Shown in pieces: positions 29,056-64,000 of a DNA stretch of 64,000 nt. The stretch's first letter is position 1. Each line of letters opens with the position of its first letter. Made by a program: the position numbers and the translations under genes. The notes beneath the pieces are model-generated. The model did not search any database. It saw only the letters and a program-made list of their open reading frames with translations, and was not told the DNA's origin. The stretch is from Gemmatimonadota bacterium (lineage in GTDB: Bacteria > Gemmatimonadota > Gemmatimonadetes > Gemmatimonadales > GWC2-71-9), in NCBI GenBank assembly GCA_040388535.1, contig JAZKBR010000007.1, positions 68,862-132,861 on the forward strand, in the 5' to 3' direction.

Positions 29056-30408
29056 TCACCTCGCGATGGGCAGATCGATCTCCACCGCCGTCCCTTCCCC
29101 CGCCGTGCTCCGGATCCGGATATGCCCCCCGTGGGCCGAGACGATTTGCCGGGCGACCGAGAGGCCGAGGCCGGTACCGTCGGACTTGGTGGTGTAGAAG
29201 GGGTCGAACACCGATTCGAGCTGCTCGGCCGGGATGCCGACACCGGTATCACGCACCGTCACCCGAACTCCGCTGGTCACCCCCTCGACCGTCACGGTCG
29301 CCTCGCCGCTCTCCGCGAGGGCGTGGGCGGCATTGAGGAGGATGTTGAGGAAGGTCTGCTCGAGGGCGGCCTCGTCGCCGCGAATCGGCACCGGGGCATC
29401 GCCAAGGGCGGGCTCGTGCAACCGGGCGCGTCGCTGATCGAACGAGACGCGGGCCACCTCGATGGCCCGCTGCAGCGGCACCCGGAGGTCGACCAGATCC
29501 GAGCCGATGTGACCACTCCGGGCAATGCGCAGGGCACCGCTCACCGTCTGATCAAGGCGATCGACCTCGCGCAGCGCTCGCTCGAGCGGAGTACGCAGCG
29601 TGGAGTCGGCAGGAAGTTTTTCCTGGACGCGCTGCAGGTCGATGCGAATCGAGGTGAGTGGATTGCGGATCTCGTGCGAGAGCGCCGCCGCAAATTCTCC
29701 CACGGCCGCGAGCGACTGACGCTGCGAGAGTTCCTGCAGCGTGCCTCGTAGCGACTCGGTCATCGCGTTGAAGGCGCGGCCCACTCGCCCCACCTCATCG
29801 GTGGTGTCCTCGCGCACACGGCGATCGAGGTCGCCTGAGGCGACGGCCTGGGTGGCGGCGGCGAGGGATTCCATCGAGTTGGTCATCCGCCGCGTCAGCA
29901 CCGTCGCGACCGTGAGCCCCCCAAGTGCAACAATAAGAATCGCGAGCGCACCCTTCCGAGCTGCCCGCTCGAACGGCACCGTGTAGGTGCTCAGCGGCGC
30001 CGCGGCGATCAGCGTGATCGCTGGCTCCTGCACTTCGCGCCGACGCACAAGCCAGCGTTCGCCGCCCGACTCGAAGTGATCTCCGTCGAGCAGTGAGCGA
30101 TCGAGGGGCCACTCGCCAAGCACGGCTCCGGTGCGACGGTCAACCGCCACCAGCAGTGCTCCGAGCAGGTCGGCGCCTACGGTTCCCGACGGCACGATGC
30201 TCTCGGCCGTGAGCCGGGCCTTGGTAACACCGAGTGCGGCCTTTGTCAGTGCGCTGTCGAGCCGATCGCGCAACAACCCCTCACCGGAGCGGCCCGCAGT
30301 GCCAGTGAGCCAGAAGCCGACCAGCAGAAAGGGCAGCACCAGGCCACCGAGCACCACACGAAAGAACTTGCCCCGGAGTGATCGACGGGTGAAGAGCCGA
30401 AAGGGCAT
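29056..30408 (-). CDS. Membrane sensor histidine kinase
   Basis: A protein of 450 residues: a first membrane helix near 15-37, a periplasmic sensor of ~115 residues, a second helix near 153-172, then a HAMP linker, a HisKA domain with the phospho-acceptor His245 in LSHEIRNPLTS, and an ATPase domain with the N box (NILLNAAHAL), DTGVGIP and GTGLGLSVARQIV. It is the partner of the NtrC-type regulator upstream; the ATG shares one base with the regulator's stop (TGATG). The signal sensed is not readable. Confidence 0.95.
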   Translation of the reverse strand: MPFRLFTRRSLRGKFFRVVLGGLVLPFLLVGFWLTGTAGRSGEGLLRDRLDSALTKAALGVTKARLTAESIVPSGTVGADLLGALLVAVDRRTGAVLGEWPLDRSLLDGDHFESGGERWLVRRREVQEPAITLIAAAPLSTYTVPFERAARKGALAILIVALGGLTVATVLTRRMTNSMESLAAATQAVASGDLDRRVREDTTDEVGRVGRAFNAMTESLRGTLQELSQRQSLAAVGEFAAALSHEIRNPLTSIRIDLQRVQEKLPADSTLRTPLERALREVDRLDQTVSGALRIARSGHIGSDLVDLRVPLQRAIEVARVSFDQRRARLHEPALGDAPVPIRGDEAALEQTFLNILLNAAHALAESGEATVTVEGVTSGVRVTVRDTGVGIPAEQLESVFDPFYTTKSDGTGLGLSVARQIVSAHGGHIRIRSTAGEGTAVEIDLPIAR

Positions 30409-31745
30409 CAGTCGAGGCCGTGCTTCTTGAGCAATCGGTCGAGGCGAGGACGAGAGACGCCGAGGGCGCGCGCGGTGCGGCTCTTGTGACCGTGGAACAC
30501 GGCGAGGACGCGCTCCACGTGCTCGCGTTCAAGCGCGTCGAGGGTGGCGAGCACCACCGGGTTGTCCTGCGTAGTGGCCGCGAGCTGGATATGCTCGGGC
30601 CGGATCACATCGCCGCTCGCCTGCACCAGGGCGCGCATCAGGCAGTTCTCCAATTCGCGCACATTGCCGGGCCAGTCGTATGCCGCGAGCAGGTCGATCG
30701 CCCCCTGCGACAGTACCGGCACCTGGCGACCGAGCGCTTCGCTGGCCTTGAGCATCAGGTGCTGCGCCAGCAACGGTACATCGGCAGCACGCTCACGCAG
30801 CGCCGGGACCTCGATGTCGACAACGCGCAGGCGATAATAGAGGTCGGCGCGGAAGGCGCCGCTGGCAACTAGCCCTTCGAGGTTGCGATGCGTGGCGGCC
30901 AGCACGCGGGCCTCGGTGCGCTCGGGTCGCTCGCCACCCACCGGGTAGTACTCGCGCTCCTGCAAAACGCGGAGCAGCTTGGCCTGCAGGTCGACCGTGG
31001 TATCGCCGATTTCGTCGAGGAAGATCGTCCCGCGTCCCGCGAGTGCGAAACGACCTCGACGGTCGCCCGTCGCGCCAGTGAAGGCGCCGCGCACGTGACC
31101 GAAGAGTTCCGACTCCAGCAGGTTCGCCGGCAGCGCGGCGCAGTTGACCGCCACGAAGGGCGTACCCGATTCGGGCGAGCTCGCGTGAATTGCGCGCGCG
31201 ATCAGTTCCTTTCCGGTGCCGGTCTCGCCGCGGATCAACACCGTGGCGCGACTCCCCGCTGCCTGTCCGATCCGCTTGAAGACGGCCACCATCCGGGGGT
31301 CGTGCCCCACCAGCGCCCCGGGGAAATGTTCGGCGATGGCACCGCTCTCCTCATCGTGCCGCCGCGCCCCGACCCGCAGGCGTCGGTCTTCGAATACCTG
31401 CGCCAGCACCCGTCGCAACGCGTGCAGGTCCAGCGGCTTGACCAGGAACTCGACCGCCCCCTCTCGCATTCCGGCCACCACCGTCGGCATATCATCGAAT
31501 GCCGTCATCAGGATGACATCGATGCTCGCCTGCCGCTCCTTCAGCAACCGCAGCAGGGCGATGCCATCGAGACCTGGCATCCGGATGTCGCTGAGGACCA
31601 CATCGACGCCACCAGCGCCGATGATGCTCAAGGCGCTCTCGGCGCTATCGGCCGTGCGCACCGCCATGCCGTCATCCGCGAGCGCCTCGGCGAGGGCGTC
31701 ACGGATGGTGGCATCATCATCGACGATCAGGAGGGAGCGGGTCAT
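30408..31745 (-). CDS. Sigma-54-dependent NtrC-family response regulator
   Basis: A protein of 445 residues. Receiver domain 1-120 with phospho-acceptor Asp53 (LSDIRMPGLDG), AAA+ domain from about 143 with Walker A GETGTGKE 173-180 and the sigma-54-contacting loop GAFTGA 220-225, and a C-terminal Fis-type helix-turn-helix (GHKSRTARALGVSRPRLDRL). It should activate sigma-54 promoters after phosphorylation by the coupled kinase. A strong -24/-12 promoter candidate occurs at 58235-58248, but no sequence evidence links the two. Confidence 0.96.
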   Translation of the reverse strand: MTRSLLIVDDDATIRDALAEALADDGMAVRTADSAESALSIIGAGGVDVVLSDIRMPGLDGIALLRLLKERQASIDVILMTAFDDMPTVVAGMREGAVEFLVKPLDLHALRRVLAQVFEDRRLRVGARRHDEESGAIAEHFPGALVGHDPRMVAVFKRIGQAAGSRATVLIRGETGTGKELIARAIHASSPESGTPFVAVNCAALPANLLESELFGHVRGAFTGATGDRRGRFALAGRGTIFLDEIGDTTVDLQAKLLRVLQEREYYPVGGERPERTEARVLAATHRNLEGLVASGAFRADLYYRLRVVDIEVPALRERAADVPLLAQHLMLKASEALGRQVPVLSQGAIDLLAAYDWPGNVRELENCLMRALVQASGDVIRPEHIQLAATTQDNPVVLATLDALEREHVERVLAVFHGHKSRTARALGVSRPRLDRLLKKHGLD

Positions 31746-58080: not shown

Positions 58081-58234
58081 GGAAATACACGACGAAATCG
58101 TTGCCTCACCACCACAGGTGGACTTGATTCCGGCGTGGCGACGCGACACTCCGCCACGGTAGATGGTGGCTTGAAAGCAACACCTTTGCCCCAAAGCAAG
58201 TCAGGGCAACAACTTACGTTTTCCTGGGGTGGTG

Positions 58235-58248
58235 GGCACCGGCTTTGC
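58235..58248 (+). promoter_or_regulatory. Sigma-54 (-24/-12) promoter of the PEP-CTERM gene
   Basis: GGCACCGGCTTTGC has GG at 58235-58236 and GC at 58247-58248 with the required 10 bases between them, and matches GGCAC and TTGCT of the RpoN consensus. Transcription would begin near 58259, about 40 bases before the ATG at 58301. A small palindrome CTTTGCCCCAAAG lies ~40 bp upstream (58184-58196) with a repeated AAAGCAA, possible activator-binding sequence. Confidence 0.7.
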
Positions 58249-58300
58249 TATTATTAGCGAGCAATCGGTGACCTCTTCCGGCGCCGAACCCGAGGGAAGT

Positions 58301-59050
58301 ATGCGAAATCCGTTGCGCTCAATCGCTCTGCTGGCACTTCTTGGCTCGCTCGCTGCGGCTCCGCTGCGCGCCGATGACCCACCCAAGGCATTCTCGAGCA
58401 ACTTCGGCCTCTCCGGCGGCATCATCGCCACAGGCGACCAGATCACGGCGACGTATTACGGATGGGAAGGGACCACGGTCTTCGGTCACACCATCTGGGC
58501 GATGACGACCGCGCAGTATGCGCAGAACCTCACCAACAACTGTTTCTGGTGGGTGGCGTGCGGCAGCCTCACCGGCACGTCGCTCTTCACCAAGCCGTAC
58601 GGCGTCAGCAACAACGACAACCTGAATAATCCGGCTGTCAGCCAGTTTGCCTGGACCATCGGCACCGAGATCATCTTCGCGCTGCAGGTCGATCAGGGAG
58701 ACGGCTTCAACTGGTTCTTCTCCGGTGATCCGGCGCGTAACAGCGACGGGCTCGCGCATCTCGCCTATTTCTCGCCGCAGGCTTTCCCCGACGGCGTGCC
58801 GGGGAATGGTGGCCAGGGCTTCGTGCCGAACACCGCCGGCAAGAGCCTCTTCGGCTTCGAAGACGTGACCTATCAGCACAGCGACTGGGACTTTGACAAC
58901 TCGATCTTCGCGCTCGATAACGAGACCGTCGGCGTGCCGACCGACGTCGTGCCCGAGCCGGCCACGCTGACACTGCTTGGCAGCGGGCTCGCCGGCCTCG
59001 CCGGGGCACTGCGCCGACGTCGCCGCCGTGAGGCAACGTCTCCAGAGTGA
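58301..59050 (+). CDS. PEP-CTERM sorting-signal secreted protein
   Basis: A protein of 249 residues with a signal peptide ending near LRADDPP and a C-terminal VPEPATLTLLGSGLAGLAGA followed by RRRRRR, the PEP-CTERM signal removed by exosortase. The region between is Gly/Asn/aromatic-rich beta sequence of unknown fold (TTVFGHTIWAMTTAQYAQNL). It should be exported and anchored or released at the surface with exopolysaccharide. ATG at 58301 has GAGGGAAG upstream. No exosortase gene is in the window. Overlaps the next gene by four bases. Confidence 0.92.
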   Translation: MRNPLRSIALLALLGSLAAAPLRADDPPKAFSSNFGLSGGIIATGDQITATYYGWEGTTVFGHTIWAMTTAQYAQNLTNNCFWWVACGSLTGTSLFTKPYGVSNNDNLNNPAVSQFAWTIGTEIIFALQVDQGDGFNWFFSGDPARNSDGLAHLAYFSPQAFPDGVPGNGGQGFVPNTAGKSLFGFEDVTYQHSDWDFDNSIFALDNETVGVPTDVVPEPATLTLLGSGLAGLAGALRRRRRREATSPE

Positions 59051-60591
59051 CCGCGTCGCCATCGGCCGGTAGCCACCGGATCACCACGAGGCCGGCCTTT
59101 CAGGCCGGCCTCGTCGCGTTCGTGGTCGGGTTGCTGGCGCAGTGGTGGTCACATGAATACCATCTCGTCTTCGCCTTCTGGGACTCGCAGGCGCATCTCG
59201 ATATCGCACGGCGCATCGTCGATTCCACCACGCCGGGAATCCAGATGCTGGGCACCGTCTGGCTGCCGATTCCGCATCTGCTACTGTTGCCGTTCACGCT
59301 CATCGACAGCTGGTGGCAGAGTGGCATGGCCGGTGGCGTCGTGGGCTTGCTCGCATATGTCGCGATCGTCGCGAGCGTGCACGACCTCCTCGTGCGGCGC
59401 ACCGGCTCGCTCCCACTCGCCTGGATCAGCACCGCGCTGGTGTTGCTGAATCCTTCCCTGCTCTACCTCCAGACCACCGCGATGACGGAACCGGTGCTCC
59501 TGGCTTTCATCACCACCGCCGTCGTGGCTATCGATCGCTGGAACGACAGCGGCAAACCGCAGACATTGCTGACCGCCGGCCTGCTCGCAGCGCTCGCCGT
59601 CGGGAGCCGCTACGACGGCTGGTTCTTCGTCGCGATGGCGGTGCCGGTCGTGACCTGGCTTTCATGGCGCAGCCAGCGTCGCTGGTTCGCTGACACGCTG
59701 CGCTTCGCGTTGCCGAGTGCGTTGATGGCGGCGCTCTGGTTCGGATACAACTACGCCTTCTTCGGCGACCCGCTCGAGTTCCAGCGCGGCATCTGGTCGG
59801 CACAGGCGCAGCAGGCCGCTCTCGCGGCCCGCGGACTGCTACCGACCAAGGGTGCCCCGCTCCTCGCCATCGGCTACTACCTCGGCGCGACCGCGCTCGT
59901 GTCGGGCCTGATCGTGACCACCCTCGGGCTGCTCGCGACGCCGTTCCAGTTCCGGCGCATCGGGCGCAACGCTCCGGCGCTGCTGCTGATGACGGCGCTC
60001 CCGTTCAACATCCTCGCCCTCTGGGGCGGCCAGAGCGTCATCGCGCTGCCGTGGACGACTCCGGCCGGAATTCTCAATGTCCGCTACGGGGTGATGCTCC
60101 TGCCGGGACTCGCCGCGATGCTCGCGATGGGCCTCGCCATGGCGGCTGATTGGCGTCCAGAGTGGGCCCGGGGCACACTCCTCGCTGGTATGTTGGTCGT
60201 GCTGGCGCAGGGATCGCTCTTTTCGCGGGATTGGCCGGCGAACGCTGGCGCCCTGCGGGAGGGCCTCGCGATCCGCGACGGCGACCAGCGGCAGCAACGG
60301 GCCTCTGACTGGCTGGCCGAGCACTACGATGGCGGCCGGGTACTGGTGGATGGGGCAGTGAATCTCTCGCCCCGTACCAGGATTCCGCTCCGCGACCGGA
60401 TCTACGACTGGACCTGGCAACTCGGGCAGGCCGCCCTGGCCGCCCCCGACCGCGAGGTCGACTGGGTGATCGTCGATGGGCAGGACAGTACTGATGCGGT
60501 GTCCCGCGCCATCGCCCGGCGCGCCGGTTTCGCCGACAAATTCGACCGTGCGTTTGCCGACGGTGGCCTGGAGATCTGGCGACGCCGTTGA
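59047..60591 (+). CDS. GT39/ArnT-like membrane glycosyltransferase
   Basis: A protein of 514 residues with about ten to twelve membrane helices. The first loop has FWDSQAHLDIARRIVDS with the catalytic-type Asp of GT-C enzymes, followed by GTVWLPIPHLLLLPF, and TAMTEPVLLAFITTAVVAID further on. Members transfer sugars from polyprenyl phosphates in the periplasm. A soluble C-terminal region of ~130 residues follows. GTG start overlaps the PEP-CTERM gene stop (GTGA), linking the glycosylation step to that protein. Confidence 0.87.
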   Translation: MTASPSAGSHRITTRPAFQAGLVAFVVGLLAQWWSHEYHLVFAFWDSQAHLDIARRIVDSTTPGIQMLGTVWLPIPHLLLLPFTLIDSWWQSGMAGGVVGLLAYVAIVASVHDLLVRRTGSLPLAWISTALVLLNPSLLYLQTTAMTEPVLLAFITTAVVAIDRWNDSGKPQTLLTAGLLAALAVGSRYDGWFFVAMAVPVVTWLSWRSQRRWFADTLRFALPSALMAALWFGYNYAFFGDPLEFQRGIWSAQAQQAALAARGLLPTKGAPLLAIGYYLGATALVSGLIVTTLGLLATPFQFRRIGRNAPALLLMTALPFNILALWGGQSVIALPWTTPAGILNVRYGVMLLPGLAAMLAMGLAMAADWRPEWARGTLLAGMLVVLAQGSLFSRDWPANAGALREGLAIRDGDQRQQRASDWLAEHYDGGRVLVDGAVNLSPRTRIPLRDRIYDWTWQLGQAALAAPDREVDWVIVDGQDSTDAVSRAIARRAGFADKFDRAFADGGLEIWRRR

Positions 60592-60616
60592 TGGTCCGGC
60601 AGCAAGGAGGAGTATC

Positions 60617-62674
60617 GTGACGACCTGGATGGCACCACGCGGGCGCATTGTCGCGCCGATTGCGCTCGGACTCCTGATCGCCCTCGGCGGCTGCAAGGGG
60701 AAGGAGAGCCCACTCGCACCGGCAGCCCGGGCGCCGCTTCCGGCCGCGGTCGATTCGGCGGCGGGCCGCGCTGGCGCCGCAGGTGCCGCTGGTGGCGCCG
60801 CCGACAGTCACGAAGTGCTCCCGACCATCCTGACCTCGGCGGTCGACTCCACCTCATCACCAACGCTCACGTTCGCCGACATCGGCTACAAGAGTGGCGT
60901 GACGCTCATCGGCGCCAACGACGAAGCGACAATCGCGGTGCCGGTCAACGATGGCCTGCACGCGACCGAATTGCGGCTGCAGGTGATGCCGACGCCCAAC
61001 ATGCCGGCGGCGTCGCTGGTGCTCCGTCAGCGAGACCGCGTGCTCGCGGTGCGGCCCCTCTCCGACAGCACCACGGTGCTCACGCTGCCGCTGGTCGACG
61101 CAATCGTGGTGGACGGCAAGGCAACGCTCTCGATTTCACTCAGTGTGCCGAGCCGCGATGCCTGCCAGGCGCAGCTCTACTATCGCACCGTGCTCGCGCC
61201 CGAGAGTCAGGTGCATTACAGCGGCTTGCCGGCCGCCGTCGCCGGCATCAACTCGTTCTTCCAGCCGTGGGTCCGCAAGGTCACGTTTTATGTGGCCGAG
61301 AAGCCGTCGCTCGACGCCGCGCAGGCGGCCCTCGATGCGGCCGCGTTCGTGGCCCGACGCTATCGCGGGATGTCGACCACCTTCGAGATCAAACCGTTGC
61401 CCGCGACCGATTCGATGCCGGAGCCCGGTCCGTACGATCGCGCGCTGGTGTGGAGCCCCACGGGCGGGACGATGATCGCGCGCGCCGAGGGAGGTCGCGG
61501 CACCGTGCTCGCGATCGCCGGCCGCCGTGATGCGCGTCAGCTCTTCACGGTGGCCGACGGCGCCGACCTGGTGACCGCTCCCGGCTTCAAGACGACCACG
61601 GTCGACCTCAGCCACAACACGCCCGACAACAGCGACGGCGTACGGACGCTCGGCGACCTCGGCTTCACCAACCGCACGCTCGAGGGAAGTTCGCTGCTGG
61701 TTGCCGCGTATCCCTTCTCGCTGGCGGATTTCGGCAACAGCACGGTGCCGACGGCGTTTCGCCTCGTTGCCGAACATTCGGTGCTGCCGCCCAACGGCAA
61801 TGGCTCGCTCCGGGTGCATCTCAACGGATCGCTCATCTACTCGCGTGCCATCGATCACACCTCGCTCGACGTCGTGGTCCCGCTGCCGTCGCACCTGGTT
61901 GGTCGTGACAATGTCATCGAGGTGCGCTTCCAGGTCGTGCTGGGTGAGGGAGGCTGCCTGTTGGGTGGGCCTGTCTTCACCGCGACGATCGACAACGGCT
62001 CGTCATTTGTTATCAACGGTCGCAGCAACATCGCGCCCGGCTTCGGTCGCTTCCCGGCCTCGTTCGTTCCCGCCTTCTCGGTGCTGCTTGAGCCGCGAGA
62101 TCGCTTCCGGGTAGAACTTGCGAGCCAGATCATCGGGGCGATGCAGCAGACGACCCACACGCCGCTCGCGCCGGGGCTCGCGCGTGACTTTGCTGCTGCC
62201 AGCGGACCGCTGCTTGCCGTCGGCACCACCGGGCTCGCGAATGCGCTCGACGCGCCGGTGCACACCGATGGCTTCCGTCTCCGCGACCGCGCGGGCAAGG
62301 TGTGGGACGAGTTCACACCGACCGCGCCATACGCGGCGATGCAGGGGTTCGAGCGTAACGGACAGGACGTCCTGCTGCTGCATCACACGCAGGCGAATGG
62401 GCAGCCGCTGGCGGACCTCGTGCGCGAGGCGCTCGGCCCCTACGGCTGGTTCGGTGTGCGCGGCGATCTGGCCGTGCGGGGCGAGCAAGGGCCGATGCGT
62501 CAGCTGACCGTGGCGAACGCGGGCTGGCGGGTTGACCTCACGGGCGAGGGTGCCACCTCGAGGCTGGCGCGCTACCGCAGCGCGATATTCCTGGTGGCCG
62601 CGATCCTGATCATGGGCCTGCTGCTCTGGCTCTACCCTCGCGTCGTCCGTCGTGAGCTCGATTCGCCTCGGTGA
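60617..62674 (+). CDS. BcsB-like cellulose synthase regulatory lipoprotein
   Basis: A protein of 685 residues. It starts at GTG 60617, six bases after a perfect AAGGAGG, and has a lipoprotein signal (LLIALGGC). The Ala/Gly-rich linker is followed by two BcsB-type carbohydrate-binding/flavodoxin-like repeats (LQVMPTPNMPAASLVLRQRD; VPSRDACQAQLYYRTVLAPE; FRLVAEHSVLPPNGNGSLRV) and a C-terminal tail helix AIFLVAAILIMGLLLWLYP, as in BcsB, which guides the glucan through the periplasm. Overlaps the synthase gene by 23 bases. Confidence 0.87.
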   Translation: MTTWMAPRGRIVAPIALGLLIALGGCKGKESPLAPAARAPLPAAVDSAAGRAGAAGAAGGAADSHEVLPTILTSAVDSTSSPTLTFADIGYKSGVTLIGANDEATIAVPVNDGLHATELRLQVMPTPNMPAASLVLRQRDRVLAVRPLSDSTTVLTLPLVDAIVVDGKATLSISLSVPSRDACQAQLYYRTVLAPESQVHYSGLPAAVAGINSFFQPWVRKVTFYVAEKPSLDAAQAALDAAAFVARRYRGMSTTFEIKPLPATDSMPEPGPYDRALVWSPTGGTMIARAEGGRGTVLAIAGRRDARQLFTVADGADLVTAPGFKTTTVDLSHNTPDNSDGVRTLGDLGFTNRTLEGSSLLVAAYPFSLADFGNSTVPTAFRLVAEHSVLPPNGNGSLRVHLNGSLIYSRAIDHTSLDVVVPLPSHLVGRDNVIEVRFQVVLGEGGCLLGGPVFTATIDNGSSFVINGRSNIAPGFGRFPASFVPAFSVLLEPRDRFRVELASQIIGAMQQTTHTPLAPGLARDFAAASGPLLAVGTTGLANALDAPVHTDGFRLRDRAGKVWDEFTPTAPYAAMQGFERNGQDVLLLHHTQANGQPLADLVREALGPYGWFGVRGDLAVRGEQGPMRQLTVANAGWRVDLTGEGATSRLARYRSAIFLVAAILIMGLLLWLYPRVVRRELDSPR

Positions 62675-64000
62675 TTACCTCGTTGAACGAGGACTGATCT
62701 CGTCCCAGCAACTCACCACCGCGCTGCAGCAGCAGCAGCGGACGGGCGAGCGGCTGGGGCGCCTGCTGTTGATCTTCGGATTCGTCCGCCGGCTTGACCT
62801 GGCCCGCGCCCTGGCCGCGCTCTGGGGCTATCCGTTCGCGACCGTCGAGGAAAAGACGGTCGATGCCGCCGTAGCCCAGCGTTTCCCACTCGATGCCACC
62901 CTGCAGTATCGCGCCGTGCCGGTGCGCGACGACGGCGCCATGGTGACCGTCGTGGTCGCCGACTCGCCACCGGACGCCCTGTCGCAGACCCTCAACGTGG
63001 TTTATCCGGGCCGCGCGATCGACTATCGCGTTACCACGGAGTGGGACCTCGACCGTGCCATCGCCCTCGCACACCGGCGCAAGGTGGTCGACACCTCGAT
63101 CTACGGCCTCTACTTCCGCGATCAGGCCGAGAGCGCGTTTACGGTATTCACGCTGCCGCAGTACCTCACTTTCGCTGTGGCGTGCTTTGCCCTGCTGGCA
63201 GGCTTCTATTCGGCACCGCTCGAGACGCTGCTGGTGATCAACGTGCCGATCACGGCGTTCTTCCTGCTGGTGGTGGCGTTCCGCACCTGGGTCGGAGTCA
63301 GTGGCGCATCGGCAGAGACCGCGATCTCGCTCACGCCGGAAGATCTCGCGGCCATTGATGAACGCGCACTGCCGGTCTACAGCATCCTGGTGCCGATCTA
63401 TCGCGAAGCCGCCGTCATCAAGACGCTGCTCAAGTCACTTGCCGAACTCGATTACCCGGCCGACAAGCTCGACATCCTGTTGCTCTTCGAGGAGGACGAC
63501 CCGGAGACGCTTGCCGCTGCGAAGGCTGCGGCCCCTGGGGCAAACGTTCGCTTCTTCGTGGTGCCGACGGGCGACCCGCAGACGAAGCCGAAGGCATGCA
63601 ATGTCGGCCTGCTCTTCGCGCGCGGCGAGTACCTCGTGATCTACGACGCCGAGGACCAGCCCGAACCGGACCAGCTCAAGAAGGCCTACCTCGCCTTCCA
63701 GCGCGGACCCGAAGCGCTTGTCTGCGTGCAGGCCGCCCTCAACTACTACAACTGGAACGAGAACTTCCTGACCCGGATGTTCACGCTCGAGTATTCGTTC
63801 TGGTTCGACTATCTCCTGCCGGGCCTCGACATGCTGCGTCTGCCGATCCCGCTCGGCGGCACCAGCAATCATTTCAAGTCGCAGATCCTGCGCGACCTCG
63901 GCGGCTGGGATCCCTTCAACGTGACCGAGGACGCCGACCTCGGCATCCGCGCCGCGATGCATGGCTACCGCGTCGGGATCATCAACTCGACGACCTACGA
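62652..64000 (+). CDS. MshEN-GT2 polysaccharide synthase, truncated by the right edge
   Basis: About 450 codons are visible; the C-terminus is cut. It begins GTG with IRLGDYLVERGLISSQQL, a T2SSE-N (MshEN) domain that in other proteins binds c-di-GMP, through residue ~140. Two membrane helices follow near residues 170-220, then a GT2 catalytic domain with YSILVPIYREAAVIKTLL, the DxD-type IYDAEDQPEPDQL, and TEDADLGIRAAMHGY. The QxxRW motif would lie outside the window. With the BcsB-like partner it should make a beta-glycan under c-di-GMP control. Confidence 0.9.
   Translation, partial: MSSIRLGDYLVERGLISSQQLTTALQQQQRTGERLGRLLLIFGFVRRLDLARALAALWGYPFATVEEKTVDAAVAQRFPLDATLQYRAVPVRDDGAMVTVVVADSPPDALSQTLNVVYPGRAIDYRVTTEWDLDRAIALAHRRKVVDTSIYGLYFRDQAESAFTVFTLPQYLTFAVACFALLAGFYSAPLETLLVINVPITAFFLLVVAFRTWVGVSGASAETAISLTPEDLAAIDERALPVYSILVPIYREAAVIKTLLKSLAELDYPADKLDILLLFEEDDPETLAAAKAAAPGANVRFFVVPTGDPQTKPKACNVGLLFARGEYLVIYDAEDQPEPDQLKKAYLAFQRGPEALVCVQAALNYYNWNENFLTRMFTLEYSFWFDYLLPGLDMLRLPIPLGGTSNHFKSQILRDLGGWDPFNVTEDADLGIRAAMHGYRVGIINSTTY

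Follow-up and report, generated by a model that had tools for sequence, protein, structure and literature searches.

At PEP-CTERM genes, and in Proteobacteria only, Haft 2006 described a 17-nt enhancer with TTTACA at its end alongside a sigma-54 site, and with them the PrsR/PrsK pair (PMC1569441). Later work showed binding of such PEP-CTERM targets by the DVUA0057 protein of Desulfovibrio (PMC3333781), and pepA of Aquincola needs RpoN1 (PMC9850573). Sigma-54 control of the bacterial exterior, with EPS and envelope genes under sigma-54, was treated by Francke 2011, in a text that makes no mention of PEP-CTERM or exosortase (PMC3162934). In the literature found, the link between PEP-CTERM sorting and sigma-54 is confined to Proteobacteria, Desulfovibrio included; for Gemmatimonadota no paper connecting the two was found, most subscription journals being outside the searched literature.

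The locus described here lies in a Gemmatimonadota genome, within a window of 64 kb (the whole stretch of DNA that was analysed). It has in common with the PrsK/PrsR regulon a -24/-12 site some 70 nt ahead of PEP-CTERM starts with an enhancer element upstream, EPS genes accompanied by those for an NtrC-family response regulator and a kinase, and exosortase-dependent targets scattered over the genome. It differs in belonging to another phylum, in having an 18-bp TGTnGC-N6-GCnACA dyad and not the 17-nt motif ending in TTTACA, and in that the EPS operon and the regulator gene bear the same element. EPS and envelope genes under sigma-54 are also what it shares with the control of the bacterial exterior, and a -24/-12 element, upstream dyads and phased tandem copies are shared with general sigma-54/bEBP promoters of the NtrC and NifA type. 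Soil bacteria of the Gemmatimonadales appear to turn on sorted surface proteins and polysaccharide genes together, via sigma-54 and their own activator, distinct from the proteobacterial one. Judged from sequence, this is the same logic as that of PrsK/PrsR, with different parts. A PrsK/PrsR-like logic had been suggested in the preliminary description of this DNA, and it is partly supported: the sigma-54-type promoter, rpoN and the enriched motif agree with it, but the genome has no PrsR equivalog, and TTTACA, the core of the proteobacterial enhancer, was present in 0 of 143 upstream regions (4 expected).

The probable PEP-CTERM operon and its predicted promoter

The features of the locus are collected in Table 1. 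The start codon, ribosome site and PEP-CTERM assignment given in the preliminary description were right, the PF07589 score being over its cut-off, and the protein also exceeds the cut-off of TIGR02595 (22.2 against 16). One exosortase is encoded in the genome, which, with the tail over the cut-off, points to a PEP-CTERM/exosortase system. The presence of rpoN had been set beforehand as a test, and the gene occurs in a single copy (PF04552, 210 bits) with the RpoN box ARRTVAKYR.

Table 1. Positions of the promoter, enhancer-like and coding features within the window
Feature	Position	Strand	Basis
Enhancer-like dyad copy 1 (CGTTGCCTCACCACCACA), best of three	58099..58116	.	13.8 bits, symmetrised dyad matrix
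Enhancer-like dyad copy 2 (CGGCGTGGCGACGCGACA), weaker	58131..58148	.	9.1 bits; 32 bp from copy 1
Enhancer-like dyad copy 3 (GGTGGCTTGAAAGCAACA), weaker	58165..58182	.	10.0 bits; 34 bp from copy 2
Predicted -24/-12 sigma-54 promoter element GGGCAC-CGGC-TTTGCT (GGGCACCGGCTTTGCT)	58234..58249	+	Sequence, matrix score, orthologs
Predicted transcription start	58259..58260	+	Inferred, 11-12 nt past the -12 GC, general sigma-54 geometry
Ribosome-binding site GAGGG	58292..58296	+	Sequence
PEP-CTERM protein, 249 aa, signal peptide, VPEPATLTLLGSGLAGLAGALRRRRRR sorting tail	58301..59050	+	PF07589, 26.2 bits, cut-off 20.7
Membrane glycosyltransferase (PMT/GT39 type)	59047..60591	+	PF02366; overlaps PEP-CTERM stop
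BcsB-like protein	60476..62674	+	PF03170 weak, 22.6 bits, cut-off 21; synteny
MshEN-GT2 polysaccharide synthase-like protein	62652..64000	+	PF00535/PF13641 and PF05157

On the forward strand, GGCACCGGCTTTGC occupies 58235-58248, with GG at 58235-58236 and GC at 58247-58248, 10 nt apart, and the element accordingly carries the GG and GC of the sigma-54 consensus TGGCACG-N4-TTGCW. Its start lies 67 nt upstream of the PEP-CTERM ATG, and it is very probably a real promoter. The PEP-CTERM gene is the probable first gene of an operon, the four genes from 58301 on being tightly packed on the same strand. The true start of the BcsB-like gene is probably further downstream, and the MshEN-GT2 frame leaves the window (613 aa in all, full frame in locus L353). 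Four further genomes of the genus have the same gene order, again with threonine synthase upstream, and this conservation makes it most likely that the promoter serves a polysaccharide operon whose first gene encodes the sorted PEP-CTERM protein.

In the proposed mechanism, the element would be the -24/-12 promoter of this operon, whose genes, that of the PEP-CTERM surface protein first and then those for polysaccharide synthesis, would be co-transcribed by RNA polymerase carrying sigma-54 (RpoN). Transcription would be switched on, presumably upon a signal, by an NtrC-family response regulator encoded elsewhere in the genome (C1:563425-564927), which in its active state would bind the TGTnGC-N6-GCnACA dyads, here at 58099-58182, loop over and open the promoter. 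The same activator would control its own gene, the divergent EPS operon and most other PEP-CTERM genes, and through this shared control sorted proteins and polysaccharide would be made together. This explanation, taken as a whole, is considered highly likely.

The upstream dyad

The dyad, which had been missed in the first reading of the sequence, was the strongest motif from discovery over a longer upstream region, and it lies on average 124 nt upstream of the sigma-54 promoter. TGT-N12-ACA occurs in 55 of the 143 upstream regions against 4.8 expected; the other half-site spacings gave 6 (N11), 9 (N13) and 17 (N10) in the same regions, with an expectation of about 5. NifA sites have the form TGT-N10-ACA, from which the dyad described here differs both in sequence and in spacing. 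Tandem copies are often about 21 or 32 bp apart, that is, two or three helical turns, and such a tandem, helically phased arrangement is typical of an enhancer site.

Within the window, copy 1 is the only dyad match above 13 bits and is recovered by matrices trained without the window's genome, although it is imperfect (CGT..ACCACA). Copies 1 and 2 are separated by one of the two distances that are common at other promoters. The strict dyad alone shows no enrichment genome-wide (10 places versus 12 for the reversed control): specificity lies solely in the pair of dyad and sigma-54 site, position and pairing being informative and exact-pattern counts uninformative.

A candidate activator in the EPS/exosortase locus

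The genome encodes nine sigma-54 activators. The best candidate regulator of the dyad-bearing promoters is the NtrC-family response regulator on the minus strand of contig C1 (563425-564927), in the EPS/exosortase locus, together with the histidine kinase whose gene follows directly on the same strand. The activator has the GAFTGA loop of a bEBP, the kind of protein that goes with upstream activator sites such as these dyads. Its gene is divergent from the EPS operon, and the sequence between them holds one dyad between two outward sigma-54 sites, one per gene. Of 72 orthologous loci across Gemmatimonadota, 42 have a dyad above 13 bits in front of the activator gene, against 0.5 in shuffled sequence and 1 of 72 inside the activator coding region. 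The kinase gene follows the activator in 71 of 80 loci, and a Wzc-like gene is divergent in 49, many loci ending at contig edges. All 22 exosortase-positive relatives have the activator, usually near the exosortase, and so do 19 of 39 exosortase-negative genomes, a distribution suggesting that polysaccharide is probably its primary target, with PEP-CTERM proteins added in genomes that have them.

The same promoter could instead be served by another sigma-54 activator, either the NtrC-type regulator of the window (30408-31745) or the NtrX-like one beside the PEP-CTERM gene at C1:602486. Having nine activators in the genome, one of them in the window and one adjoining a PEP-CTERM gene, gives this idea some footing, and profiling across genomes covered the C1:563425 activator alone, so a second activator could act at these promoters. 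The window's regulator, 27 kb away, had been put forward as a link to the promoter, a suggestion that did not hold: upstream of it no dyad and no sigma-54 site exceeds 7 bits, and it scores best as NtrC/AtoC. The PEP-CTERM gene adjoining the NtrX-like activator lacks the element, and the dyad is found at the C1:563425 gene itself in most orthologs, which leaves control by a different activator improbable. As an observation on the window itself, a membrane kinase and the NtrC/AtoC-type regulator form a pair at 29056-31745, probably an operon.

The C1:563425 activator, which we prefer, may be either a diverged PrsR or an independent recruit. Against TIGR02915 (PrsR), the best of the nine activators reaches 393.1 bits and the candidate 370.6, under the cut-off of 502.6; among the eight of the nine activators that were scored against the NCBIfam models, the candidate alone has TIGR02915 as its best-scoring model. 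Unlike PrsK, which is a transmembrane kinase, the adjoining kinase (351 aa) has no obvious transmembrane segment, and TIGR02916 is not among the matches listed for that kinase. That PEP-CTERM and EPS genes form one Gemmatimonadales sigma-54 regulon, with an activator and kinase recruited independently of PrsR/PrsK and an enhancer code of its own, is a reading to which we give about even chances. If independent recruitment is true, sigma-54 control of sorted surface proteins arose more than once, and the activator predates the exosortase that it serves and occurs more widely. A PrsK/PrsR-like logic would now extend to a soil phylum that is common and hard to grow, and its enhancer sequence is defined; with a candidate activator, a kinase and a list of targets named, cultured Gemmatimonas can serve for direct tests of how matrix formation is controlled in Gemmatimonadota. 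In Gemmatimonas phototrophica shifted to low light, one PEP-CTERM gene is up more than fourfold at 8 h, and this transcriptome offers existing data in which the proposed regulon could be checked (PMC11406998).

Shortly after the activator-kinase pair, on the same strand, lies a gene for an AMP-dependent acyl ligase (C1:560727-562289; L042:8728-10290), which scores 249 bits with TIGR03098, the exosortase-associated ligase family, under the cut-off of 592.

Conservation and recurrence of the promoter element

The exact GG-N10-GC spacing noted in the preliminary description is conserved, with TTGC, in 6 of 6 same-genus orthologs (7 of 7 counting the window's gene), and the rest of the promoter has diverged; majority identity is 0.86 in the site core and 0.47-0.49 in the flanks. 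This comparison also bears on whether a housekeeping sigma-70 (RpoD) promoter is at work, with TATTAT (58249-58254) as its -10 and a coincidental GG..GC match. A good -10-like hexamer is indeed present within TTTGCTATTATTAG, but no convincing -35 lies at 16-18 bp, and TATTAT is kept in none of the six orthologs, versus GG and TTGC in all of them; a sigma-70 promoter is therefore very unlikely.

The sigma-54 element recurs well beyond the orthologs. Among 82 PEP-CTERM upstream regions from the window's genome and its relatives, 41 have a consensus score of at least 9, where dinucleotide shuffles give 2.3 and the reverse strand 4; this is the motif enrichment that the preliminary description had called for. 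For the PEP-CTERM genes of the window's own genome against its intergenic controls, P = 2.5e-4. Prior-free motif discovery in the 82 regions yielded nGGCACgnnnnTTGCnnt, the sigma-54 consensus, with a log-likelihood of 241 versus 55-70 in shuffled sequence. In a second set of 64 PEP-CTERM genes, nearly all of the family that includes Gemmatimonas, 25 upstream regions score, against 1.3 in shuffles, and both motifs, sigma-54 site and dyad, were recovered again when this set was pooled with the earlier genes of that family. Start codons for the upstream sets were picked by a simple rule, and the orthologs and genomes, being related, are non-independent samples. With a matrix derived from PEP-CTERM promoters, in which the window's gene is 1 of 82 in the training set, the element is the sole sigma-54 match above 12 bits on either strand of the window, and the hold-out scan agrees. 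A sigma-54 site lies upstream of most PEP-CTERM genes; a strong one is missing from about a quarter to half of them, including one in the window's genome (C1:602486-603331). This element-free gene, in the region C1:602486-606186 (locus L044 of genome G000), is divergent from a kinase and the NtrX-like activator and may have regulation of its own.

Scored alone against shuffled window sequence, the site does not separate from chance: TGGCAC-N5-TTGC with one mismatch allowed has 3 matches in the window (4.35 expected), and the genome has 15 copies of GGCAC-N5-TTGC, without enrichment (39 for the reversed pattern), two of the 15 directly upstream of PEP-CTERM genes. A chance match in a GC-rich genome, which such unremarkable single-site statistics would allow, is refuted as far as sequence can do so and left with a negligible probability by the context: conservation in the orthologs, motif discovery de novo in both sets, a bias in strand and position, and the hold-out scan. 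The words ACTTAC/GTAAGT, recurrent by eye upstream of several genes of the same genome, were dropped, being absent from the motif discovery output.

The own-genome scan for pairs of dyad and sigma-54 site covered 464 kb of 3.7 Mb, or 12 percent of the genome. With matrices from other genomes of the genus, the top seven pairs are six PEP-CTERM promoters, the window's included, and the exopolysaccharide operon; with matrices that left out both the own genome and the orthologs, the activator's own promoter and a Wza-like gene come up too. Reversed sequence gave no pairs, with matrices that included the genes of the window's genome. Matrices trained solely outside the genus find the sigma-54 site well and the dyad less cleanly. 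In the window's genome, 7 of 8 PEP-CTERM transcription units carry the element, by a matrix that included those genes and with two tandem genes counted as second genes of operons, and the hold-out scan recovers six of these seven. Loci L012-L016 from the PEP-CTERM search are not PEP-CTERM proteins, and an apparent sigma-54 site before L016 was left uncounted. At C2:688537-688578 of G000 (loci L016 and L024) there is an exact sigma-54 site, TGGCACTAGGCTTGCT, which is not before a PEP-CTERM gene; a strict dyad begins about 10 bp downstream of its -12, where an activator site would be unusual.
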